From assembly GCF_000974685.2 (NCBI RefSeq), contig NZ_AP018738.1:248001-312000 (forward strand): a stretch of DNA of 64,000 nt. The letters are read 5' to 3'. A model generated the notes under the pieces. That model saw only the letters and a program-made list of their open reading frames with translations, searched no databases and had not been told where the DNA came from. Both the position numbers and the translations under genes were made by a program. Numbering within the stretch: the stretch's first letter is position 1; every line of letters begins with the position of its first letter. Shown here in pieces: positions 20,659-63,680 of the stretch. Origin of the DNA: Ferriphaselus amnicola. Its GTDB lineage: Bacteria > Pseudomonadota > Gammaproteobacteria > Burkholderiales > Gallionellaceae.

Positions 20659-21005
20659 GATGAGTCTTGTGAGTTAATCAGCGGCGGATTATACGGCGAT
20701 AGCCGCAGCGGCGCGAAAAAAGGAGTGCGCCCACTCTATCGTTCGGCCGTTGATGATGTTGCTTAATGCCTCGCCAGCGGGGAGGAGGCCATTCTGGCTG
20801 AGTTGGCTGCTGCCTCAGCTGCCCACCAGCGCTGCGCTACTCAAAATTGCAGGGAGCCCTGAAAACCTTAGCGAGTGGCTTGAGCGCAGTGTAGTGAGCG
20901 GGACGGCAAAGCCGCCGAGCATCCGCCGGCCCGCGCCTTGAAGGGAAATCGAGTTGCGCAGAAGGTTCTTCGAGGTTTTCTGTGCTTTATCTTTGAATTC
21001 GTCCA
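20659..21005. other. Gene-poor spacer with a possible dispersed repeat
   Basis: No convincing gene. The stretch at about 20,815-20,940 is GC-rich and reads in all frames like a non-coding repeat. A 63-residue minus-strand frame starting at 21,006 (overlapping the cytochrome stop as TGATG) begins with a plausible hydrophilic segment DEFKDKAQKTSKNLLRNS. It then runs into residues such as GAGRRMLGGFAVPLTTLR that look like translated repeat DNA. I do not call it a gene. The right part, up to 20,660, precedes hemJ and should contain its promoter. Confidence 0.4.
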
Positions 21006-21839
21006 TCACTTTTCTGATCTGACTCGCTCATGATTGGCATTCTTCATGCCGCGAGGAAGGGGAGGTGCGGGCTCAGGCTTGATCGGATTGAATCGATTCT
21101 TCTGTACGGTGTGAGGATTGTGGCATTCCGTACAAACCCACCAACGCTTCTTACCCTCGTGCGAGGCCCAAGCCCCCGATCTTTTGCCATGCACGCCGGC
21201 TCGCCAATCAATGTATTTCTCTCCGTGACAATCTCCGCACATTCTTTGGGGCTGATTAAAGCTGATCTCCTCGCCTCGGCGATTCATCAGCTTATTGCGA
21301 TTCGTCGGGCTATGGCAATCAAGGCACCATACCGCACCACGGCCATGCTGCAACTCGAGAGAGTTCTCGACAATATCCTGATGCATCGCTAGTTCGCGCG
21401 GCTTCTTGTCCTTGGGATAAGGCACTGTTTTACCATCATGGCAGGATTTACAGCCATCTGGGCCCATATTGAAATACGTCAGATGCGGCTCCCGCGGCTT
21501 TACAAACGCATTACCAAAGTTGCCGTGAGTCTCATCCTTGATCTCCGGCATCTCGCCCATCGGTATCGTTCCCTCCATTGGGTCGCCATACCACAGGACG
21601 GCGCCAGTGGTCTTGGAGCATTTGACACTCGGGTAGTTATACTTGGGGACAGCATTCTCAGTTCGGGTCACAGTCGTGTAATCCACTCGGCTTTCATAGC
21701 ACTCTGTCACTGGCTTTGCGGCCTGCTTTCCGGCACTTTCGTCTGCTGCATTTACACGTTGATACGCCCCCACTCCAAAAAGGAGGAAGCTGCTCAGGAT
21801 GAATGCAGCTGTTTTCGATACCTTGCGCTGGGAAATCAT
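21006..21839 (-). CDS. Periplasmic tetraheme cytochrome c
   Basis: Secreted or membrane-anchored multiheme cytochrome, 277 residues. The N-terminus has a basic start and a hydrophobic core (TAAFILSSFLLFGVGA). Four CXXCH heme motifs occur at CKSCH 130-134, CLDCH 172-176, CGDCH 201-205 and CTECH 236-240. The first 120 residues have no heme motif, and single cysteines lie at 47 and 74. It is the distal gene of an operon with an NrfD-type membrane subunit and a four-cluster ferredoxin. By analogy with DsrJ/ActA/QrcA-type subunits it should carry electrons between the membrane module and the periplasm. The specific system is not identified. Confidence 0.85.
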   Translation of the reverse strand: MISQRKVSKTAAFILSSFLLFGVGAYQRVNAADESAGKQAAKPVTECYESRVDYTTVTRTENAVPKYNYPSVKCSKTTGAVLWYGDPMEGTIPMGEMPEIKDETHGNFGNAFVKPREPHLTYFNMGPDGCKSCHDGKTVPYPKDKKPRELAMHQDIVENSLELQHGRGAVWCLDCHSPTNRNKLMNRRGEEISFNQPQRMCGDCHGEKYIDWRAGVHGKRSGAWASHEGKKRWWVCTECHNPHTVQKNRFNPIKPEPAPPLPRGMKNANHERVRSEK

Positions 21840-21936
21840 TTAGTACATCTCCTCATACTCTGTATAGCCACAAGTTCCTAATCGGCCGGATTCTTCAATG
21901 AGTTCACCACTGCAACACCGAAAGGAACGTGCTTCC

Positions 21937-23184
21937 TTAGCTCTGTTTCACCGTGTTGGATGGAGACTTCTCGTACCGGACGTCGCCGGTCAAAATGCCG
22001 ATCGCGCCCTTTATGATCAGCGTCAGCCAGAGAAATGCCATGGCCCAAATGAACAATACGTTGAAAAACTCGATCAAAGTCACATGGTATTCGGTGTATT
22101 CCCCGAGCGGCGATGGGCTAAAGGCTGGGAACACCAGAACCATCGGTTTCTCAATCAGCACCCCAAAGAACACTAGGAAACAGACCAGTGGCAGCCAGAG
22201 GTTGTAACTTTTTCTGACCCTGGGGAAAAGCAGAGCTACAAAGCTACCGACTAGCGTAATCATGACTCCCCAGAACCAAGGGACGTACATATTCAGGCCA
22301 TTGTGGCCGAACATGTTGTACTTCATCGAATGCGCGTGCTCTGTGCTTGAATACAGTACAGAAAACATCTCAGCGGCAAACACCAACATCAACAGGCCAA
22401 GACTCCAAGTGATGATTGTGGTGAGTAGGTCGATGACCGAGTCGTTGACTTCCAGCTTGGTATATTTCCGAGCCAACAAGAAGATCACTATGATCAGAGA
22501 CGGGCCGGATGCACCTGCCATCGACAGAAATCCAAATGGCAAGACTGCCGTAGCCCATGACTCCATTCGAGCATTACTGGCGAGCACAAATGCCGTGACG
22601 ATGTGGATCAGTGGCCCCCAGGCTATGGCCAGATAAACAATCGGGGTAAACCATCTTGCCAGATGTTTGGAATCAAACGTGCCGACGTATTTCTTATAAA
22701 GAATGTAAAACACACCAATGAGGTTCAGGTACAGGTACACGTTTAGAACAATGGTGTCATACACCAACATCGAGTTCGGAAAGTTCAGGAATCCGATGCC
22801 CGGCACCATGTGCAGTAATCTGTCCGGACGCCCCATGTGGTACAGAATGAAGGTGATGCCGGTCGCCACGAATACCATCGCGACAATCTCGCCCATGACG
22901 GCAAGTTCCTTCATGTCTTGACGATGGTAGAAATAGCCGGGGGCAACCACTAACACGGCTGCCGCCGCCACATGCGCAGTAAACACGAAGTTCGCAAAGA
23001 ACATTTCCAAAGTGACTTGGTCGGTTGCCCCAGTCAGAATGAGTCCCTCGGTGAACTGCCTGTACGACGTGTAAGTGCCGACCAGTATGAAGAACGACAG
23101 GAAGAGGAGCCATGCGTAGTACATGGATCCGCCTTTGATCGCATACAGACTGGTGTCCTTCGCAAAAGACAAAGCTTTATTCAT
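21937..23184 (-). CDS. NrfD/PsrC-type quinone-interacting membrane subunit
   Basis: Polytopic inner-membrane protein of 415 residues with about ten hydrophobic helices, matching the NrfD/PsrC/HybB/DsrP superfamily that exchanges electrons and sometimes protons with quinones. Visible helices include YYAWLLFLSFFILVGTY near the N-terminus, WATAVLPFGFLSMAGASG centrally and VTLIEFFNVLFIWAMAFLW near the end. It sits 9 bp after the ferredoxin subunit gene and upstream of the tetraheme cytochrome, so the three should form one complex. No molybdopterin catalytic subunit is adjacent. The family is clear; the substrate and direction of electron flow are not. Confidence 0.88.
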   Translation of the reverse strand: MNKALSFAKDTSLYAIKGGSMYYAWLLFLSFFILVGTYTSYRQFTEGLILTGATDQVTLEMFFANFVFTAHVAAAAVLVVAPGYFYHRQDMKELAVMGEIVAMVFVATGITFILYHMGRPDRLLHMVPGIGFLNFPNSMLVYDTIVLNVYLYLNLIGVFYILYKKYVGTFDSKHLARWFTPIVYLAIAWGPLIHIVTAFVLASNARMESWATAVLPFGFLSMAGASGPSLIIVIFLLARKYTKLEVNDSVIDLLTTIITWSLGLLMLVFAAEMFSVLYSSTEHAHSMKYNMFGHNGLNMYVPWFWGVMITLVGSFVALLFPRVRKSYNLWLPLVCFLVFFGVLIEKPMVLVFPAFSPSPLGEYTEYHVTLIEFFNVLFIWAMAFLWLTLIIKGAIGILTGDVRYEKSPSNTVKQS

Positions 23185-23193
23185 GATGCGTCC

Positions 23194-24258
23194 TCAGCCG
23201 ATGTAATAGAAGAACTTCGGATAGGTACCGAACTCTTCCTTGAATCTGAATACCCGTTTCGTTTCGAGTACCTTGCGGACATCGCTCTCGGGATCGAGCA
23301 GGTTGCCGAACTTTCTGGCGCCCACCGGACACGCCTCTAGACAGGCAGGATTCCGTCCTTCACGCGTACGTTGAACACAGAAGGTGCATTTCTCCATTAC
23401 CCCCTTCATGCGCGGCCTGTTCCCGAAATAGTGCGTCTTGGGATTCATCTCTTCAGCGGGAAGTTGGGGTTCGCCCCAGTTGAAGCGCCTTGCTTGATAG
23501 GGGCATGCCAGTTGGCACATGCGGCAACCGATGCACCAGTTGTAGTCGATCAATACCACGCCAGCATGATCCCTGAATGTCGCCCTCACTGGACAAGCCT
23601 TCACGCAGGGCGGCTTTTCGCACTGCTGACATTGCACTGGCATGTAGAAGAAGTCTTTGTCAGGAACGGTCTCATCTTGGTAATAGCTTTGCGCGCCTTC
23701 GGTGGTCATTCCTGCCGGATGATAGGCATTCCCACCAACCTGCACGCCATAATCGCCAAACTGGCTTTTCTCGGGATAACCTTTCTCCAATTCGTCGGCT
23801 GAAAATGAAATATTCCCTTTCGGAATCTTCATTACCTGTATCCATTGGATCACAGTCCCCTCGCGCGACTGATTGTTCTCCTCCACGCACGCATGAACAC
23901 ATCGTCTGCAGCCTATGCATTTCGACATGTCGAGGGCATAGCCAAAAAGCACATCATCCGGCGCGGCGACATCAGAGACCGTCGTTTCTTTGCCAAATTT
24001 TGCGGTATATCTCTTTTCAAGACGCGCGATGGCTTGTTTCTTTTCCTCATCAGACATCAGCACAAAATGTCCCTGGAAGAATTCGGCAACGGTCGTGTCG
24101 GCATCGGCTGAGTCTGCTGCTTTCACAACGGCCTCTGCTGCCTCAGGTGCCACCACAAGTGCTGCGGCACTTGAAGTGCATACAAATTTCAAGAAATCAC
24201 GACGCCCAGCATCCAGCTCTGCCGCATCTTCCATCTTCACATTATTTTCTTCTGACAT
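23194..24258 (-). CDS. Tat-exported 4x[4Fe-4S] ferredoxin subunit
   Basis: Periplasmic electron-transfer subunit of 354 residues. The ATG at 24258 follows GGAGG by 5 bases. A twin-arginine signal (GRRDFLKFVCTSSAAALVVA) is at about 18-37. Cysteine groups CIGCRRCVHAC, CQQCEKPPCVKACP, CIGCRMCQLACP and CTFCVQRTREGRNPACLEAC predict four [4Fe-4S] clusters, as in DsrO, NrfC, PsrB and DmsB. Residues about 60-80 carry HFVLMSDEEKKQAIARLEKR, which resembles a stretch in the small Tat protein upstream. It should wire the NrfD subunit to the tetraheme cytochrome. Confidence 0.88.
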   Translation of the reverse strand: MSEENNVKMEDAAELDAGRRDFLKFVCTSSAAALVVAPEAAEAVVKAADSADADTTVAEFFQGHFVLMSDEEKKQAIARLEKRYTAKFGKETTVSDVAAPDDVLFGYALDMSKCIGCRRCVHACVEENNQSREGTVIQWIQVMKIPKGNISFSADELEKGYPEKSQFGDYGVQVGGNAYHPAGMTTEGAQSYYQDETVPDKDFFYMPVQCQQCEKPPCVKACPVRATFRDHAGVVLIDYNWCIGCRMCQLACPYQARRFNWGEPQLPAEEMNPKTHYFGNRPRMKGVMEKCTFCVQRTREGRNPACLEACPVGARKFGNLLDPESDVRKVLETKRVFRFKEEFGTYPKFFYYIG

Positions 24259-24289
24259 ATGCACCTCCAGCTTAGGTATCTGATAAATC

Positions 24290-24547
24290 CTATGAGAGCT
24301 CTTTGGAATGGCAGCTTAGCAACTCATCCAGACGCTGCTTTTTTTCAGCGTCCGTCATAACAACCAAGCGGTTTGCCATCAAAGCCTCTTCTTGCTGCGA
24401 CGCATCATTTGAGTATTTTTCCGAAAGACCGGCATCTGAAGTTTTTGCTCCGGAAATCAATGTTTTTGTGTAAGCAGCCGCCGCAATGACCCCAACCGCA
24501 GCCGCCACCCTTCCAAAAAAGGAACGTCTAGAGTTTTTCTCATTCAT
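24290..24547 (-). CDS. Small Tat-signal protein of the NrfD operon
   Basis: About 85 residues. The ATG at 24547 (or 24550) has GAGGT just upstream; a longer start at 24565 is possible. A twin-arginine signal (SRRSFFGRVAAAVGVIAAAA) is followed by a short mature part. The sequence RLVVMTDAEKKQRLDELL parallels FVLMSDEEKKQAIARLEKR in the ferredoxin subunit, so the two share an N-terminal module. One cysteine (LLSCHSKELS) is near the end. I know no defined function. It could be a small accessory or escort subunit of the complex. Confidence 0.7.
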   Translation of the reverse strand: MNEKNSRRSFFGRVAAAVGVIAAAAYTKTLISGAKTSDAGLSEKYSNDASQQEEALMANRLVVMTDAEKKQRLDELLSCHSKELS

Positions 24548-24599
24548 CATCTTTACCTCATCCATAAGCTAAGCTACACACCACGTGCAAATCATTATG

Positions 24600-24908
24600 T
24601 TAATCGTCCATTTTCCTAGGCAAGTGGGCGCGCAAGCGACACAGCGCATCTGTCAAAACCGCATATCTCTCAAAAAACTCCTTTGTCAGCCGCGCCCCCT
24701 CTTCATCCGTGGTCTCCGCATTTCCAACACCGTTCATCGCTGCGCGCATGAGATCGGTCAATTGGTTGTGGAACAGCGCGGCCTCGTCCTCAGAGGAAAA
24801 TTCTAATACCTTGCTTTTTGGGTTGTATTTCATCACTGATAATCGTTCGATGGGTATGCCACCCGAGTATGGAGCCAACTTTCCGAGAGTGGCTGGATTT
24901 TCCGTCAA
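24600..24908 (-). CDS. Small hypothetical protein, first gene of the NrfD operon
   Basis: Not recognised. The longest frame has 102 residues but starts at TTG. An ATG at 24833 (MKYNPKSKVLEFSSEDEA) would give 77 residues, so the start is uncertain. The product is hydrophilic and mostly helical, with no signal peptide, membrane segment or cysteine cluster. It is on the same strand as, and about 50 bp upstream of, the small Tat protein, so it probably leads the operon. A cytoplasmic accessory role, for example in maturation or Tat proofreading, is conceivable but unsupported. Confidence 0.55.
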   Translation of the reverse strand: MTENPATLGKLAPYSGGIPIERLSVMKYNPKSKVLEFSSEDEAALFHNQLTDLMRAAMNGVGNAETTDEEGARLTKEFFERYAVLTDALCRLRAHLPRKMDD

Positions 24909-25060
24909 CCTATAGCTGTTATCTATACCTCTGGCAGCTAAATATGTGGAAACTTTTCGTTGGCAATTATACCCCCTTTGGATGATAGCCTTATCAAGTG
25001 AGTGGACTTAAGATGAGCGCTGGTACGAAGTTCGATGTTTCCATTTGGGGAGATGTGACA

Positions 25061-25435
25061 ATGAAAATAATCACGACATTCGGTGCGATGCTGTTGACCG
25101 CTGTTTCAGTAACCGCTCAGGCCGATAAGGTCGTGAGCTTCAAGGCGGATATTCGCCCCATTGTTGATGACTACTGCCTGAGTTGTCACGTACCGGGCGG
25201 CAAGGGATTTGAGAAGAGCAAGCTCGACCTGAGTAGTTACCAGAGCTTGATGAAAGGCACGCAATTCGGTCCCGTCATCAAACCCGGCGACAGCCAGAAC
25301 AGCACGCTGAACATGCTGATCGAAGGCCGAGCCGATCCATCGATCAGCATGCCTTATGGAATCAAAGGCTCGTTATCCCCTGACAAGATTAAACTGTTTA
25401 AGCGGTGGGTGGATCAGGGGGCGCAAGACAACTAA
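25061..25435 (+). CDS. Monoheme cytochrome c, PSCyt1-like
   Basis: Secreted 124-residue cytochrome. The ATG at 25061 has GGGGAG 9 bases upstream and opens a signal peptide (TFGAMLLTAVSVTAQA). The mature part reads VVSFKADIRPIVDDYCLSCH, with a single CXXCH. It ends with DKIKLFKRWVDQGAQDN, the W-x-x-x-GA ending seen in planctomycete-type cytochrome C domains. It is divergent from the NrfD operon with about 150 bp between, so it could be a soluble partner under shared control. The partnership is inference. Confidence 0.85.
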   Translation: MKIITTFGAMLLTAVSVTAQADKVVSFKADIRPIVDDYCLSCHVPGGKGFEKSKLDLSSYQSLMKGTQFGPVIKPGDSQNSTLNMLIEGRADPSISMPYGIKGSLSPDKIKLFKRWVDQGAQDN

Positions 25436-25447
25436 CTCCCGGAATGA

Positions 25448-25473
25448 GGTGGTCAGTCGACCGCCTTCTTATT
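25448..25473 (+). terminator. Rho-independent terminator after the monoheme cytochrome
   Basis: GGTGGTC and GACCGCC form a 7-bp stem (one G-U pair) with a 4-base loop, followed by TTCTTATT, 12 bp after the cytochrome stop. Confidence 0.6.
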
Positions 25474-25507
25474 GAAATCGTGGTCTGTCACCTATTGTTT
25501 CCTATTC

Positions 25508-25810
25508 TCAGAACATTAGTCTGGCAGAAACAACAAGTACTATCATCGCTAGAATATCAGACAAAATCTGCAAGGCCAAAGGTGGATTGGACATAGATTG
25601 AGGGCCAAACACGTAATTGTCACCGTTAGCTCGACAGTGAAAATAGTATGTACAGTACAAAACCACAATCACCTTAACAATGTTATCGAACATAAACTCG
25701 TATCCTGTTTTCGTGGACAGAATCCATGCCACTACGGATAGTACTGCGGGGGCTATCCACAGAATAGCCAGTAGAAACTTTCGGATGAGTGACGTTTTAT
25801 TCTTTCCCAT
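25508..25810 (-). CDS. Small membrane protein, unknown
   Basis: About 100 residues from the ATG at 25810 (MGKNKTSLIRK). The frame extends to a TTG at 25822. At least two hydrophobic segments are visible (FLLAILWIAPAVLSVVAWIL and VKVIVVLYCTYYF), plus a third at the C-terminus (LSDILAMIVLVVSA). The DNA is visibly more AT-rich than its neighbours. Not recognised. It stands alone between the cytochrome and the FAD oxidase and is followed upstream by a long hairpin. A real but recently acquired or fast-evolving gene is my best guess. Confidence 0.5.
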   Translation of the reverse strand: MGKNKTSLIRKFLLAILWIAPAVLSVVAWILSTKTGYEFMFDNIVKVIVVLYCTYYFHCRANGDNYVFGPQSMSNPPLALQILSDILAMIVLVVSARLMF

Positions 25811-25835
25811 TACCACGTCCAAATAATATATGGGT

Positions 25836-25887
25836 ATGGTTTATTTCGGTAGTAGGAGGCAAAGACTTCTACTGCCGAAATAAACCA
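25836..25887. repeat. Long inverted repeat (22-bp arms)
   Basis: Arms 25836-25857 and 25866-25887 (core ATGGTTTATTTCGG ... CCGAAATAAACCAT) match at 20 of 22 positions around an 8-base loop. It lies between the small membrane protein and the stop of the FAD oxidase. It could be a strong bidirectional transcription stop or a small palindromic element; there is no typical U-run. Confidence 0.75.
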
Positions 25888-25903
25888 TCACTCAGAGCCC
25901 ACC

Positions 25904-27346
25904 CTAAATCACTTTCCCCGGATTCATTAGGTTCAGTGGATCAAGCGCCCGTTTTACGTTACGCATCAATTCTAGCTCCAGACAACTCTTGTAATGCGTG
26001 ATCTCCTCGCGCTTTAACTGCCCTAAGCCGTGTTCGGCGCTGATGCTGCCGTCGAGTTTGGCCACGACTTCATACACAATGCGGTTCACTTCCGGCTCAT
26101 GCTGCGCGATGAAGGCTGTGTTTTGGGCGGCATCGAACAGGGAGGCGTTGTAGTGGATGTTGCCGTCGCCGATGTGGCCGAAGGCGACGATGCGGATGCC
26201 GGGGTAGGCTGTGCGCAGATCGGCACTGGCCTGGGCGATGAACTCGGCCACGCGGCTGATGGGCACGGAGATGTCGTGCTTGATGCTCAGTCCCTCGATC
26301 TTTTGCGCATCGCTGATGTTCTTGCGCAGTTTCCACCAGCGTTCGGCGTGATGCTTGTCGGTAGTGACGACGAATTCAAGGATACCGTCGCCGAAGGCTT
26401 GCAGCGCATCACGTAGTGCAACGTCCAGCGGTGCAGCCAGCACGTCCGACAGTTGGGTGATGACGATCCACTCATGCGGACGGGCGAAAGGTTCGTGCGT
26501 GTCTTGAATGTTCTTGAACACCAGATCGAGGCAGGAGCGCGAGATGATCTCGAAGCCGCTGATCTTGTCGCCGCAGGTGGCGCGCAGATGTGCCAGCAGC
26601 GCCACCGAAGCGGCCGGGTCGCGCACGGCGATGCAGGCAGTCGCTACGGATTTTGGGCGCGGGAACAGTTTCAACACGGCGGCGGTAATGATGCCCAGCG
26701 TACCTTCCGCACCGATGAACAGGTGCTTGAGATCGTAGCCGGTGTTGTCCTTGCGCAAACGGCGCAGACCGTTCCAAATGCGGCCGTCCGGCAATACCAC
26801 TTCCAGCCCCAGCACCAGATCACGCGCGTTGCCGTAACGCAGCACGCCGATGCCGCCGGCATTGGTGGAGAGATTGCCGCCGATCTCGCAGTGCGGCGCG
26901 ATGGCGGTCAACCCCAGCGGGAACAGTCGCTCGGCCTGATCCGCCGCTTCATACAGCTCAGCCAGCTTGCAACCCGCTTCCACGGTCATGGTGTAATCGG
27001 TGGCATCCACGTCGCGGATGCGGTTCATGCGTGACAGGTTCAGCACCAGTTGCGGGGTTCCATCCGCCAACGGTACCGAAGCGCCGCACAAGCTGGTGTT
27101 GCCGCCCTGAGGCACGATGGCGACTCGATGAGCCGAGCACAGCGCAACGATGGCGCTGACCTGCTGCGTATCAGCCGGAAAAGCCACGGCCAGCGCCGTG
27201 CCGGAATAGCGACTACGCCAGTCGCTGCAATACGGTGCGGCGGCCGTGTCGGTCAGTAGATGAGGAAGGCCGACGATGTCGGCCAGTCGGGAGATCAGTT
27301 CGCGGCTCATGGGTCGCAGGGCGCTCAGTTGTTCAAGAGCGCCCAT
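25904..27346 (-). CDS. FAD-linked 2-hydroxyacid oxidase/dehydrogenase (GlcD-like)
   Basis: Vanillyl-alcohol-oxidase fold flavoprotein, up to 480 residues. The FAD-binding part contains AIVPQGGNTSLCGASVPLAD, CEIGGNLSTNAGGIGVLRYG and GYDLKHLFIGAEGTLGIITA. The C-terminal FAD-oxidase domain contains FGHIGDGNIHYN and ISAEHGLGQLKREE. This architecture is shared by D-lactate dehydrogenases, glycolate oxidase GlcD and D-2-hydroxyglutarate dehydrogenases; the substrate cannot be assigned. The first 12 codons lie inside a GGGCGCT/AGCGCCC hairpin, so the ATG at 27310 (MSRELISRL) may be the true start. It follows petC on the same strand. Confidence 0.9.
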   Translation of the reverse strand: MGALEQLSALRPMSRELISRLADIVGLPHLLTDTAAAPYCSDWRSRYSGTALAVAFPADTQQVSAIVALCSAHRVAIVPQGGNTSLCGASVPLADGTPQLVLNLSRMNRIRDVDATDYTMTVEAGCKLAELYEAADQAERLFPLGLTAIAPHCEIGGNLSTNAGGIGVLRYGNARDLVLGLEVVLPDGRIWNGLRRLRKDNTGYDLKHLFIGAEGTLGIITAAVLKLFPRPKSVATACIAVRDPAASVALLAHLRATCGDKISGFEIISRSCLDLVFKNIQDTHEPFARPHEWIVITQLSDVLAAPLDVALRDALQAFGDGILEFVVTTDKHHAERWWKLRKNISDAQKIEGLSIKHDISVPISRVAEFIAQASADLRTAYPGIRIVAFGHIGDGNIHYNASLFDAAQNTAFIAQHEPEVNRIVYEVVAKLDGSISAEHGLGQLKREEITHYKSCLELELMRNVKRALDPLNLMNPGKVI

Positions 27347-39776: not shown

Positions 39777-39804
39777 TCGTGAGCACTCTCATGCCCGGAA
39801 TAAA

Positions 39805-39980
39805 GCCCCCCGCCTGTGCCGTTGGCTCAATGTCTTGAACCTGGGTTCAAGATGGTCGCTTCCCGGTTGCATCAGGAACATCCGACTAAGGGACGCTCAC
39901 AACAGCAATTGAGTGGGTTACAACCTTAAGCAGCGCTTATTGGTTCAAAGAATTATGAGCCTGACAAACACCGCAGGGGA
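39805..39980 (-). ncRNA. ssrS: 6S RNA
   Basis: Regulatory RNA that binds sigma-70 RNA polymerase in stationary phase. The minus-strand transcript begins about CCCCTGCGGTGTTTGTCAGG and ends about GAGCCAACGGCACAGGCGGGG. The ends pair (CCCCUGC with GCGGGGG, GUGU with GCAC, GGCUC with GAGCC). The 3' half contains CTTGAACCCAGGTTCAAG, very like the E. coli 6S segment CTTGAACCAAGGGTTCAAG. The position just downstream of zapA on the same strand is the conserved location of ssrS. Boundaries are good to a few bases. A terminator follows. Confidence 0.88.
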
Positions 39981-40004
39981 CAAACTTAATCTGTGTTTCA
40001 AATG

Positions 40005-40597: not shown

Positions 40598-40606
40598 TGG
40601 TAGAAT
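40598..40606 (+). promoter_or_regulatory. btuB: Probable extended -10 promoter of the B12 receptor transcript
   Basis: TGGTAGAAT (extended -10, TAGAAT at 40601-40606) would start transcription near 40613, immediately before the riboswitch. No good -35 is visible. Confidence 0.5.
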
Positions 40607-40612
40607 CCGCGC

Positions 40613-40795
40613 GCTTCAAGGTGCCGGACGAGCCATCGTTCGGTTAAACGGGAAACAGGTGTGATACCTGTGCTGCCCCCGCAACGGTAAGCAAGGAAGG
40701 GCGCGTCAACATGCCACTGTGAGTAATCATGGGAAGGCGATGTGTCCAAGTCGGCGATGACGACCTTGTGAGCCCGGATACCGGCCTAGGAGTTT
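40613..40795 (+). ncRNA. Cobalamin (B12) riboswitch
   Basis: Adenosyl/cobalamin aptamer in the leader of the TonB receptor gene. Diagnostic pieces in order: GGTGCC near the 5' end, the GGGAAACAGGTG...CCTGTGCTGCCCCCGCAACGGTAA core with its invariant GCCCCCGCAACGG block, and the 3' B12 box AGCCCGGATACCGGCC at 40771-40786. Spacing is normal. About 130 bp separate the B12 box from the btuB start; this stretch should hold the expression platform. Excess cobalamin is expected to shut off the receptor. Confidence 0.96.
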
Positions 40796-40926
40796 GGTTA
40801 GGAAATGCTGCGGGAGGCGCATGGACGGTCGATTTCGGCAACCCAGCCGCGCCCTCCATTCTCTCGGGTTTTTCCTGTTTTATCCGTTCCAACGGGGTCG
40901 CTTGGAACTTACTTCAGGAAATCATC

Positions 40927-58213: not shown

Positions 58214-58842
58214 CGTTGATCGTCAAACATCTCGGTCTGGTCGAATACGAGCCGACTTGGCGCGCGATGCAGCGTTTCACCGCCGAGCGCACGGCGGATA
58301 CGCCGGACGAACTCTGGCTGGTGCAGCATCCGCCCACCTACACGCAGGGGCAGGCGGGCAAGCCGGAGCATCTGCTGAATCTCACCGACATTCCGGTGGT
58401 GCAGATCGACCGGGGCGGACAAGTCACGTATCACGGCCCCGGCCAGATCGTCGCTTACCTGTTGCTCGACTTGCGCCGCTGGAAGATCAACGTGCGCGAG
58501 CTGGTGCGGCTGATGGAAAACAGCGTGATCGACGTGTTAGCCGAACGCGGCGTGACGGCGGCAGGGCGCGAAGATGCGCCGGGCGTGTATGTCGGCGACG
58601 CTAAGATCGCCTCGCTCGGGCTCAAGATCAAGAACGGCTGCTGCTATCATGGCCTCGCCTTCAACGTCGAAATGGACTTGACCCCGTTCAGCTACATCAA
58701 TCCCTGCGGTTACGCCGGATTGCGCGTGACCCAAGCCCGCGAAGTCGGCATCACCACGCCGCTGGCTGAACTTGAACAACGCTTGGCGCAGCTTCTGAGT
58801 TCGCGCTTGCAACAGCATCTAGAAAGCAAACATGAGCACTGA
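58210..58842 (+). CDS. lipB: Octanoyl-[ACP]:protein N-octanoyltransferase
   Basis: Transfers octanoate from acyl carrier protein to lipoyl domains. The 210 residues start at GTG. Family motifs are [39 protein letters not shown], the catalytic lysine region [12 protein letters not shown] and the catalytic cysteine [12 protein letters not shown]. The 3' end overlaps lipA by 11 bp. Confidence 0.97.
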
Positions 58843-59776
58843 GAAACCCGCAAAACAGACCGGCGCCGCCAAGACTGCGCGCAACCCGATCAAGATCGTT
58901 CCGCTGCAACAGCGGCTGCGCAAGCCGGAATGGATACGCGTCAAATCCGGCAGCAGCGCGGGTTACCACGAAGTGAAGCGCATGTTGCGCGAACACAAGC
59001 TGCACACGGTGTGCGAGGAAGCGTCCTGCCCCAACATCGGTGAATGCTTCGGCAAGGGCACGGCCACCTTCATGATCTTGGGCGACGTGTGTACCCGCCG
59101 CTGCCCGTTCTGCGACGTGGCGCACGGCAAACCGCTGCCGCCCGATGTCAACGAACCGGCCAGTCTGGCGCAGTCCATCGGTCTGCTCAAATTGCGCTAC
59201 GTGGTTATCACCAGTGTGGATCGTGACGATCTGCGCGATGGCGGCGCGGGGCACTTTTCTGATTGTTTGACCGCCATCCGCGCCAGCTCACCCGAGACTC
59301 GGCTGGAAACCCTAGTGCCCGACTTCCGTGGTCGCCTAGAGGTGGCGTTGGACGAAATGGCGCGCAGCCTGCCCGACGTGCTCAACCACAACTTGGAAAC
59401 CGTGCCGCGCTTGTACACCTTGGCGCGTCCCGGTGCCGACTACGCGCACTCGCTGAAGTTGCTCAAGGATTTCAAAGCGCGTTTCCCGCACGTCACCACC
59501 AAATCCGGCCTGATGTTGGGCTTGGGCGAGACCGACGAAGAAGTGCTGGAAGTGATGCGCGATCTGCGCGCTCACGATGTCGAAATGCTCACCCTAGGCC
59601 AATACCTGCAACCCTCCGACGGCCACCTGCCAGTGCTGCGCTACGTCACCCCGGAAACCTTCAAACAGTTCGAGAGCGCCGCGCTGGACATGGGTTTCTC
59701 GCACGCCGCGTGTGGGCCGATGGTTAGGTCGAGTTACTTCGCGGACGAACAAGCGGCACAGGCTGGAGTTAACTGA
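58832..59776 (+). CDS. lipA: Lipoyl synthase
   Basis: Radical-SAM enzyme that inserts two sulfurs into the octanoyl chain laid down by LipB. The 314 residues have the N-terminal auxiliary cluster cysteines [13 protein letters not shown] and the radical-SAM CX3CX2C motif [10 protein letters not shown]. The C-terminal auxiliary-cluster serine is in VRSSYFAD. Length and order after lipB are standard. It is the last gene of the operon. Confidence 0.97.
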
Positions 59777-60434: not shown

Positions 60435-62990
60435 CTATGCTTTAGCAAGTTTGTTTCTATCCATCAGCCTTTGACCTTGTACAGACAAGCCTAGCAATTC
60501 TGCCAATTGTTGCTTTTCTTTATATTCAACGGGAAACATATATGTGTGCTGAATGACCATTTCCTTCAATATCCTAGTACAAACCACATTATTTTTTAAT
60601 TTTTCCGTTGTTTGCGCTACGAGTTGGATATTTAGCTTTCCATTAAAATGGAGATCAATCGCTTGATTCAGCAAAACTAAAGCAGGGGTTTCATTCTGCT
60701 TTTGAATGCTGGCATAAATTTCACTCGCCTCTTTTGAACCAATTGAAGACGCAATCTTTCGAATGACACCATTGATTACTCCGTAGGTCATAAGCAAAAA
60801 AATATCTTTGGCCTGTTCCTGCACTCTTTCATTGGTAAGGCCTGGGTGCTCCTTGAGTTTCTGCTCAATGTACTTAATTACTTCCAGCTTCGCCGTATCT
60901 GATATATGAATAAAGAAATTCAAGAATCGAAGGCCGGTTAAAGTTCCATTGTTTGCCAAATCGTATATTGCATTGCGGGTAAGAGATGCATGTCTATTTC
61001 GAATAATCTGCCCAGATATTTCCATTCCTTTAAAAGTTTTATTTATATTTGCAAGGAAAGCCACTGCGTCAATACTCTGTAATTGCTTCTCGTCTACCTC
61101 ATTCCCGTTTCTTTCAATATCGTCCAAGTTTTTATTGTGCTTCATACGTTCTTCGCTAATTACACGTTGTTCCATGACTAGCTCTGGTATCTGCGAAAGG
61201 AATTCATCCATGAAAGTTAATTGTTCTTTAGATAAAGTTGCAGGTGATTGGTCGATGAATAACAATCCAAGAGCTTTTTGAATTTCATCAAGAACCCAAG
61301 CTTCTTTTGTGTGATGCGTAACAAAAACCAATATATTTGCATAATCTTCACGATGAAGATTCGCGATTAATGTTCTTACCTCTTCTCGTACCTCACTGCT
61401 TGTTGAGTATGAATCGGCAATCTTTTTTGCGATAAAAAAATAATATAGGTATGGGTATTTAAACTGAATCTTGAATTCTTTTTCAGTCAGAATCGAATTT
61501 GACTTCAGCTTGCGAATAATTGTGTCGCCATCAACAGCAAGGAATGTTTTTTCATATTCGGTAAAAAATATATCCAGATGATGCGCATTTAATGTGCCGC
61601 CATTTCTATATAGCGCCCAAGCTAATTCAGTAAGCACATTGAGATATTTGTCCACATCCTTTTTTTGAATCTTGGCGTGATCAAAAGCTTGATAAATAAG
61701 CTGCTGGTAGCAGTACCCATGCGAAGATAACTCAAGATTATGCTGTGTATATGCCTCGAACATTTGCAGAAGCATTAGGATGTATATCGGCTTTGGGGGA
61801 ACAATGTTTCTTCTAATTATGTTGTCCAATCTCGATTTAATTTCGTCGCTCTGCTCATATAGCTCTGTCTCACCAATGGACTCTTCAATCCCAAGAGAAA
61901 TCCATCGTTCTACTAAAGCGGCTCTTTTTAAATGTCCGAACCCGAGTAATTCATACTTTTTGTAATCGTCGAGTTCCTCTATTTCTGGCGTGAGGTACCG
62001 CAATGATGAGTGGCTTACCATTACAACATGGGAAAACTTTGCATTTATGGAGGCGAGTAAATTTGCCCTGTATTTCGGATTCAAGCCAACACCATCGAGA
62101 TCATCAACAATCAACGCAGTATTTGGCATTGCCAAATACTGCGTTAGCTCAAAATTATCGTATTGATGTTTTAATGCGGCGGCTAATGACTTAAGGATGT
62201 CTGACTGATTGACTTCCTTCGCATCCAAATAAACTGGATAAATCTCCGATTTCAACAGTTGCTTGAATGCGTTCTTTAATAAGCTCGTCTTTCCCTGTTG
62301 CTCTTCCCCAAATATCAAGTATTTATTTGGTTCATTTATGATCACTTCTGAAGTAACAATTTTAAGTTTGTTGGTGTCGTCTCGATCGTCGGATTCCAAA
62401 TCTGGTGAGATGTACACATCCCCCAACAAAACTTTGTCGACTCTGCGGTGTGTTAATACAACCTCTGTGTCATCAATCCATTCCAGTGTAGCTTTTGATA
62501 TTTTGTGAATATCCAGGTCGGATACTGCAATCTCTTTGGGGGCAACTGGCTTGAAAGTATCAAGTTGGCGCTTAATCCCAGAAATTACGTCCAGCCACGC
62601 TTCATCTGGATTCGGCCACGTAGTAATTGGTTTGGCGTCTTTAGGTACGGCTTGAAACTTTGACAATTCAGAGCATGACCAGTCGCATGGTCGAACTAAA
62701 ATCGGGATAAGTTTGGCTCTTCCTTCTTCGTGCATGGAAATTGCACGTTTCATTTCATTGCTGAAGCAATAGTCAGACGCCAAGAAACTGGAGCTTATTA
62801 AAAACAAGATGAGTTCAGACTGCTCCAAATTTTCAGATACTTCCTCTGCCCATTTTTCACTAGCAACTATTTTTCTGTCATGCCATGCATCGATGATGCA
62901 ATTTCTTTTCAGCATGGCCAAATGTTCATCAAGTGAATCCTTGTGCTGTTCATCTTTATGGGAATAGCTAATAAATACTTTAATTGACAT
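60435..62990 (-). CDS. TIR-STAND NTPase, probable anti-phage defence protein
   Basis: 851-residue protein in visibly AT-rich DNA. From the ATG at 62990, residues 1-105 form a TIR-like domain (VFISYSHKD at 5-13, LILFLISSSFLASDYCFSNE at 60-79), with Glu79 as the likely catalytic NADase glutamate. A linker (KVLLGDVYISPDL near 186-198) leads to a P-loop NTPase with Walker A GEEQQGKTS at 228-236 and Walker B LIVDDLDG at 293-300. About 550 C-terminal residues are helical, without recognisable repeats, and probably act as sensor. This layout matches bacterial TIR-STAND immune proteins, in which sensor binding triggers NAD+ depletion. No ribosome binding site is strong. Function is inference from architecture. 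Confidence 0.82.
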   Translation of the reverse strand: MSIKVFISYSHKDEQHKDSLDEHLAMLKRNCIIDAWHDRKIVASEKWAEEVSENLEQSELILFLISSSFLASDYCFSNEMKRAISMHEEGRAKLIPILVRPCDWSCSELSKFQAVPKDAKPITTWPNPDEAWLDVISGIKRQLDTFKPVAPKEIAVSDLDIHKISKATLEWIDDTEVVLTHRRVDKVLLGDVYISPDLESDDRDDTNKLKIVTSEVIINEPNKYLIFGEEQQGKTSLLKNAFKQLLKSEIYPVYLDAKEVNQSDILKSLAAALKHQYDNFELTQYLAMPNTALIVDDLDGVGLNPKYRANLLASINAKFSHVVMVSHSSLRYLTPEIEELDDYKKYELLGFGHLKRAALVERWISLGIEESIGETELYEQSDEIKSRLDNIIRRNIVPPKPIYILMLLQMFEAYTQHNLELSSHGYCYQQLIYQAFDHAKIQKKDVDKYLNVLTELAWALYRNGGTLNAHHLDIFFTEYEKTFLAVDGDTIIRKLKSNSILTEKEFKIQFKYPYLYYFFIAKKIADSYSTSSEVREEVRTLIANLHREDYANILVFVTHHTKEAWVLDEIQKALGLLFIDQSPATLSKEQLTFMDEFLSQIPELVMEQRVISEERMKHNKNLDDIERNGNEVDEKQLQSIDAVAFLANINKTFKGMEISGQIIRNRHASLTRNAIYDLANNGTLTGLRFLNFFIHISDTAKLEVIKYIEQKLKEHPGLTNERVQEQAKDIFLLMTYGVINGVIRKIASSIGSKEASEIYASIQKQNETPALVLLNQAIDLHFNGKLNIQLVAQTTEKLKNNVVCTRILKEMVIQHTYMFPVEYKEKQQLAELLGLSVQGQRLMDRNKLAKA

Positions 62991-63065
62991 GGTTTGGCTT
63001 TCGTAAATTATTGACAGCAAATATTGCGATAAAACGGGGACAGAATCATTGATTCTTAGCAGTCA

Positions 63066-63530
63066 TCACTTCACCCCCACCCCCAACCAAGCATCCGAAG
63101 TCAGCGCCCCCTTCAGCTTAGGCAGTGTCTCTTCCAGCCAAGCCAGTGCGAGCTTTTCTTTCTCGCGCCACATCTCTTCGCCCAATCCCTTCTTCATCAT
63201 CTGTATCGGCGCGCTGCCCTTGACCATGCTGTCCCAGAATTCGCCAGTGCTACCGACGGGGAAGGCTTTGGTGACGCTGCGTATCTCGATGTTGCGGAAT
63301 CCGGCTTTTTCCATCTCTTGTTTGAAGCGTTCGGGGTTTTCCAGTGTGGTGACGGAGCGTTGCGGTTGCGGCAGGTCGGGCTTGATGGCGCGCAGTGCGC
63401 CGAATAGGGTTTGCATGGCGACACCTTGCTCGGTGAAGGCGTAGGATAAGTATCTCGAGTGTTGTCGGCGTCCTGTCTTTGAGATCACAGGTTGTGATTT
63501 CAAACGAAACATCCTCGATACTGATGTGAT
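63066..63530 (-). pseudogene. Chimeric remnant: ORF6N fragment fused to a methyltransferase tail
   Basis: One open frame made of two unrelated pieces. About the first 48 residues (to near base 63,413) contain SQPVISKTGRRQHSRYLSYA and FTEQGVAM, typical of the interior of ORF6N phage-type DNA-binding domains. From there on, RFKQEMEKAGFRNIEIRSV, GEFWDSMVKGSAPIQMMKKG and TSDAWLGVGVK are the C-terminal part of a class I SAM methyltransferase that has lost its SAM-binding half. Neither part could be functional by its usual mechanism. The frame is open from 63,557. It marks a recombination scar beside the TIR gene. Confidence 0.7.
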
Positions 63531-63680
63531 CATGCTCAGTGCGCCCCCTTGGTTCATGTGCTGGCCGCCCGCTGTGCGGGTTCTGTCTTGCGCCAGCTCC
63601 TAACCTGGGGGATTCTGCCGTGAGCCTCGCGCCATTCGTGTGGCGGGATGTGCATTCGGCAGTTCTGCAAGCGGGGTGAA

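Follow-up and report, generated by a model that had tools for sequence, protein, structure and literature searches.

The window analysed here, a 64,000-nucleotide stretch from the genome of the iron-oxidising bacterium Ferriphaselus amnicola (Gallionellaceae), carries an intact minus-strand gene for an 851-residue protein in which a TIR domain is joined to a STAND NTPase (Table 1). An alternative TTG start at 63020, upstream of the ATG, would give a protein longer by 10 residues. The gene is present in one copy in the closed 2.72 Mb genome, and no integrase or other defence gene lies beside it. It is flanked on one side by lipB/lipA and an ORF of unknown function, and on the other by a broken ORF6N fragment and then a GGDEF gene. 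The ORF6N-like fragment is fused in frame to the apparent C-terminal end of a methyltransferase, and this fusion looks like a relic marking past recombination.

Table 1. Coordinates of the TIR-STAND gene, its domains and motifs, its flanking features and the A-tracts of its relatives.
Feature	Position	Strand	Basis
CDS, TIR-STAND protein, 851 residues (DS-8-type NTPase/sensor module with TIR effector)	60435..62990	-	ATG at 62990, stop at 60435; NCBIfam NF053861, PADLOC PDC-S60
TIR domain, residues 1–145	62556..62990	-	Pfam TIR_2, E 1.2e-16; alternating strands and helices in AlphaFold model, block pLDDT 63–90
Glu79 codon, candidate catalytic glutamate of TIR NADase	62754..62756	-	E in aligned column of 16/18 TIR relatives
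Linker, residues 146–170	62481..62555	-	site of A9–A10 tract in relatives; here without an A-run of at least 5
NACHT/STAND NTPase core, residues 189–350	61941..62426	-	alignment A2; top Foldseek matches NOD2, NLRC4, RPP1, NLRP3, Avs4
Walker A GEEQQGKT, residues 228–235	62286..62309	-	sequence; kept in alignment A2 and 18 TIR relatives
Walker B LIVDDLDG, residues 293–300	62091..62114	-	Asp296 invariant
Pfam nSTAND_NTPase4 match, residues 472–520	61431..61577	-	E 3.5e-7, 30.6 bits, cut-off 27
All-helical C-terminal region, residues 513–851, proposed sensor	60438..61454	-	within DS-8 family alignment
lipA, conserved flank; following DNA differs among species of the genus	58832..59776	+	genus comparison
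Broken ORF, partial phage-type ORF6N match, relic by TIR-STAND gene	63066..63557	-	PF10543, E 1.9e-4, 22.1 bits, below cut-off of 27.8
A9 or A10 tract at TIR–NTPase junction of relatives	L105 6434–6443; L081 5447–5455; L051 5944–5952; L052 5969–5977		-1 change of frame

A preliminary description of this DNA had placed the gene between lipA and dcw genes and had read its higher AT content as a sign of transfer. The neighbours proved to be those named above; the compositional difference itself stood. GC content is 38.7% in the gene and 57.9% (standard deviation 2.7) in same-size windows nearby, a difference of seven standard deviations, and GC3 is 0.39 compared with 0.77 in lipA. Horizontal acquisition of the gene is supported by these values, and no convincing direct repeats were found flanking it as marks of insertion.

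Elsewhere in the window, a second AT-rich stretch at 21001–26000 (GC 0.47–0.52 versus 0.58) is perhaps foreign too. Ordinary host features are also present, namely a 6S RNA (39803–39982, minus strand) and a cobalamin riboswitch (40602–40803, plus strand). Within the TIR-STAND gene, a perfect 33-nt palindrome (62113–62145; arms of 16 nt, spacer of 1 nt) sits just ahead of Walker B and is missing from the closest homologues.

Domain architecture and predicted structure

The domains proposed in the preliminary description, a TIR-like domain with Glu79, a P-loop NTPase and a helical C-terminus without recognisable repeats, are all borne out. The N-terminus matches Pfam TIR_2 (PF13676) at 61.8 bits against a cut-off of 28, as well as PF01582 (E 2e-9). 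A SEFIR identity was rejected, as the Pfam SEFIR model scores 21 bits, under its cut-off of 23. In the Glu79 column, both exceptions among the 18 TIR relatives are divergent Gram-positive TIRs, and from this conserved glutamate the TIR domain is predicted to be an NADase. The domain also matches the PADLOC ThsB model (E 2e-48), and Pfam ThsB_TIR scores above its cut-off.

Both Walker motifs are intact and kept in homologues: Lys234 of Walker A is lysine in 17 of the 18 TIR relatives and arginine in the other, and the Walker B core LIVDD spans residues 293–297. One metallophosphatase (MPP) relative, L006, reads GDEKAGCT at Walker A (Lys to Cys), yet scores 1178 bits as DS-8, the anti-phage system discussed below. 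Towards the C-terminus, no WD, TPR or ankyrin match was found with Pfam at E values up to 1, and the C-terminal end is conserved among TIR and MPP members in alignment A2.

An AlphaFold2 model of the full-length chain, built from 16 alignment rows, has a mean pLDDT of 81.7 and a pTM of 0.66. A model from four sequences was poor, with a pLDDT of 55. Foldseek searches of the full-length chain against the PDB returned as best matches NOD2 (1.7e-8), NLRC4, RPP1 (a plant TIR-NLR), NLRP3 and Avs4 (1.3e-5), the Avs4 entry being a structure bound to phage portal. The whole-chain TM-scores of 0.2–0.3 are low, which is to be expected of a protein with several domains; the NTPase fold alone is therefore secure and the shape of the C-terminus is not. 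A profile of the module searched against PDB sequences gave generic P-loop matches only. The protein combines the Walker A and B motifs with the NLR-type fold that mark STAND/NACHT (NLR-like) proteins.

Relationship to DS-8, PDC-S60 and other systems

The NTPase and C-terminus belong to a family that has already been described. DS-8, found with DefensePredictor, is a one-protein anti-phage system that combines a metallophosphatase with a NACHT domain, and mutating either domain abolishes defence, so that both are needed (PMC13092281). DS-8 was compared here through the NCBI model that bears its name, NF053861 (DS8_antiphage). Residues 163–834 of the window protein match model positions 309–993 of 994 with 577 bits (E 6e-173), a homology of about 680 residues that covers the NTPase and the helical C-terminus. 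The two proteins differ at the N-terminus, where DS-8 has its metallophosphatase (model positions 1 to about 300) and the window protein has TIR; no Pfam Metallophos match was found in the latter. Across the family, MPP relatives score 963–1178 bits over the whole model and TIR relatives score 335–586 bits over its C-terminal part only, which indicates that the C-terminal half is the shared DS-8 part and that the effector differs. As 577 bits lies under the curated cut-off of 790, the window protein is, judged by these profile scores, a TIR-armed variant of DS-8 and not a DS-8 equivalog.

A second model, PADLOC PDC-S60 (PDLC05050), matches residues 152–846 at profile positions 180–899 of 906 (E 9.7e-95). 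PDC-S60 is a candidate system, and the literature searched gave no mechanism for it. The TIR relative L042 aligns to this model from residue 96, so PDC-S60 may already describe TIR forms. The preliminary description had suggested a possibly new class of sensor; this is not supported, as the NF053861 and PDC-S60 matches show the NTPase and C-terminus to be the conserved part of both families. The exchange of TIR and MPP on the DS-8 NTPase and C-terminus is unrecorded in the sources searched.

Several other systems share part of this architecture. Avs (AVAST) and bacterial NACHT proteins likewise place a STAND NTPase between effector and sensor, and Avs4 is among the Foldseek matches, but the window protein matches no PADLOC Avs model; the C-termini of Avs proteins are TPR-like and longer. 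Thoeris ThsB has a related TIR domain, whereas the TIR of the window protein is fused to a STAND NTPase and no ThsA gene follows. The Rst TIR-NLR of P4-like satellites is also a single anti-phage protein with a TIR domain and a STAND NTPase, and its N-termini are interchanged with SIR2 or a nuclease; its C-terminus, however, has TPRs (PMC9122126).

Distribution and genomic contexts of relatives

Relatives were gathered by genome, plasmid and IMG/VR searches, with prevalence figures referring to genome samples. The distribution is patchy, the NTPase module being present in 8 of the 199 near-relative genomes sampled. By name, the two closest relatives are Gallionella MAGs, one of them on contig JAQTTV010000001, and relatives at 66–69% identity have the same full length as the window protein. 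In the 30-module tree, two Gallionella sequences are the sisters of the window gene (100/100), and an E. coli/prophage clade comes next, as sister to these (99/98). A single change between TIR and MPP suffices in 90% of the bootstrap replicates (support 88/87), and the sampled relatives showed these two types of effector only.

A neighbourhood comparison of homologues, as proposed in the preliminary description, places relatives near other defence genes. Plasmid-borne relatives adjoin R-M genes, a Pycsar-effector-family gene, a NucC-like nuclease or recombinases, and relative L002 lies beside a GmrSD-type gene. In P2-like prophages, L053 occupies the position between gpA-type and gpQ-type genes (phrog_91, phrog_68), L081 lies between a gpA-type gene and terminase/scaffold genes, and L091 is beside a portal gene; the MPP relative L057 is found between tail-completion and baseplate genes. 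The gpA–gpQ interval of P2-like prophages is the old/tin anti-phage hotspot (PMC9122126). A conserved location with host-like composition was not seen among the relatives. A tblastn search of phage records found no relative, although IMG/VR prophage contigs do carry them, and a search of E. coli DNA with one MPP relative as query gave no match.

In one subclade, an ORF of 192–196 residues stands directly upstream of the TIR-STAND gene (L053 4889–5467, L091 365–943, L042 7397–7987). It encodes hydrophobic, probably membrane-spanning stretches, has no Pfam match and overlaps the TIR-STAND gene in the prophages. It is possible that this ORF encodes a membrane partner of the TIR-STAND protein.

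Within the genus, the DNA after lipA differs from species to species. The sister species G001 has a full DS-8 (MPP, 1178 bits) 3.5 kb downstream of lipA, in an island immediately after that gene (L072 3702–16001, G001:C2) that also carries a phage integrase, a MobA/MobL relaxase and a type I R-M system. In G002, the genes immediately after lipA are a response regulator and argH; in the window genome, the TIR form lies there on the opposite strand, with its broken ORF6N relic. The post-lipA region is therefore variable in the genus and hosts two forms of one family. Because the orientation differs and no flanking DNA is common to them, the TIR and MPP forms are not a simple swap of alleles.

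An A-tract at the TIR–NTPase junction

In the E. coli/prophage clade, a run of 9 or 10 A marks or shortly precedes the end of the TIR frame, and the NTPase resumes in the -1 frame. This arrangement is seen on prophage contigs L081, L051 and L052; L052 has additional breaks of frame, and its evidence is weak. Three complete E. coli genomes (NZ_CP062811, NZ_CP048604 and NZ_AP027637) show it too, with TIR and NACHT annotated as two genes. One E. coli form consists of TIR protein WP_021574673 and a NACHT CDS, with an A10 tract. The stretch from the A-run to the conserved DTEVVLTHR segment contains neither ATG nor GTG nor TTG in the prophage copies; the E. coli form has a single TTG there. Among 22 TIR-type genes, there are eight runs of at least 9 A, six of them at the TIR–NTPase junction, where two are in frame (L026 and L028). 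The window gene lacks the A-run.

Both frames are under purifying selection, with a dN of about 0.37 and a dS of 1.5 or more between copies that are 62% identical in DNA. L081, L051 and L105 form one clade, so a single origin of the -1 shift, maintained since then, is possible. No conserved stimulatory RNA hairpin was found after the A-tract, which leans towards transcriptional slippage over classical ribosomal frameshifting. At the level of sequence, programmed slippage or phase variation fits the tract better than decay does. For slippage or frameshifting of anti-phage TIR genes, none of the papers listed was relevant.

Proposed function and alternatives

Fusions of bacterial TIR domains to STAND NTPases are phage sensors that deplete NAD+, and NLRs and Avs proteins provide the model of trigger binding, NTP-dependent oligomerisation and effector activation. 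The window gene probably encodes a horizontally acquired, single-protein abortive-infection (NLR-like) receptor, in which the NTPase and helical C-terminus are those of DS-8/PDC-S60 and TIR is the effector. The TIR and NTPase domains, the DS-8 and PDC-S60 matches, the NLR and Avs4 fold matches, the C-terminal conservation, the defence contexts and the foreign composition argue for this receptor; the sub-threshold DS-8 score, the solitary gene and the low TM-scores argue against it. The earlier proposal of a single-gene TIR-STAND immune protein gained by transfer agrees with the domains, fold, composition and patchy distribution, and with relatives on plasmids, prophages and defence islands.

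If the protein works as NLRs and Avs proteins do, the NACHT NTPase would hold it at rest as an ADP-bound monomer until some component of the phage attaches to the helical C-terminus. Exchange for ATP would then drive oligomerisation, the clustered TIR domains would become an active NAD+ glycohydrolase, and the loss of NAD+ would halt infected cell and phage alike. For the TIR members of the family, no test of activity was found.

The ThsB matches could instead mean that TIR signals to a separate effector through cyclic ADP-ribose, with the STAND part only controlling TIR. This is unlikely, as no ThsA-like gene adjoins the window gene (whose neighbours are lipA, the ORF of unknown function and the GGDEF gene) or its close relatives, the gene stands alone in the window as well as in L003 and L004, and the MPP sister form works as one protein. 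It is less probable still that an acquired defence gene has become inactive here and is decaying among other fragments: a broken ORF6N fragment does adjoin it and no mobile element is left, but its 851 codons contain no stop, it keeps the full length of its relatives, and all motifs are retained. STAND ATPases also include transcription regulators, but a housekeeping role in signalling or cell death apart from phages is very improbable for a protein without a DNA-binding domain, with a patchy distribution and with prophage, plasmid and island placing. Its DS-8 sister, furthermore, has been validated against phages (PMC13092281).

For the receptor family as a whole, there is about an even chance that one NLR-type detector carries two unrelated enzymes, TIR and metallophosphatase, which parted once, and that, in the clade next to the window gene, slippage at a maintained A9–A10 tract or tract-length phase variation sets the balance of armed receptor versus free TIR, the window gene being the fused form. 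The sensor is not new; the pairing places two different weapons on one detector. The resemblance of the DS-8 phosphatase to SMPDL3A has been taken as a hint at bacterial degradation of an unknown cyclic nucleotide (PMC13092281). The same detector with TIR suggests an exchangeable N-terminal enzyme that kills or depletes, as in Avs, and the DS-8 phosphatase may attack an abundant metabolite rather than a cyclic nucleotide. As one detector family comes with either TIR or MPP, the effectors could be swapped directly, and the A-tract of the E. coli form offers a testable control of expression.
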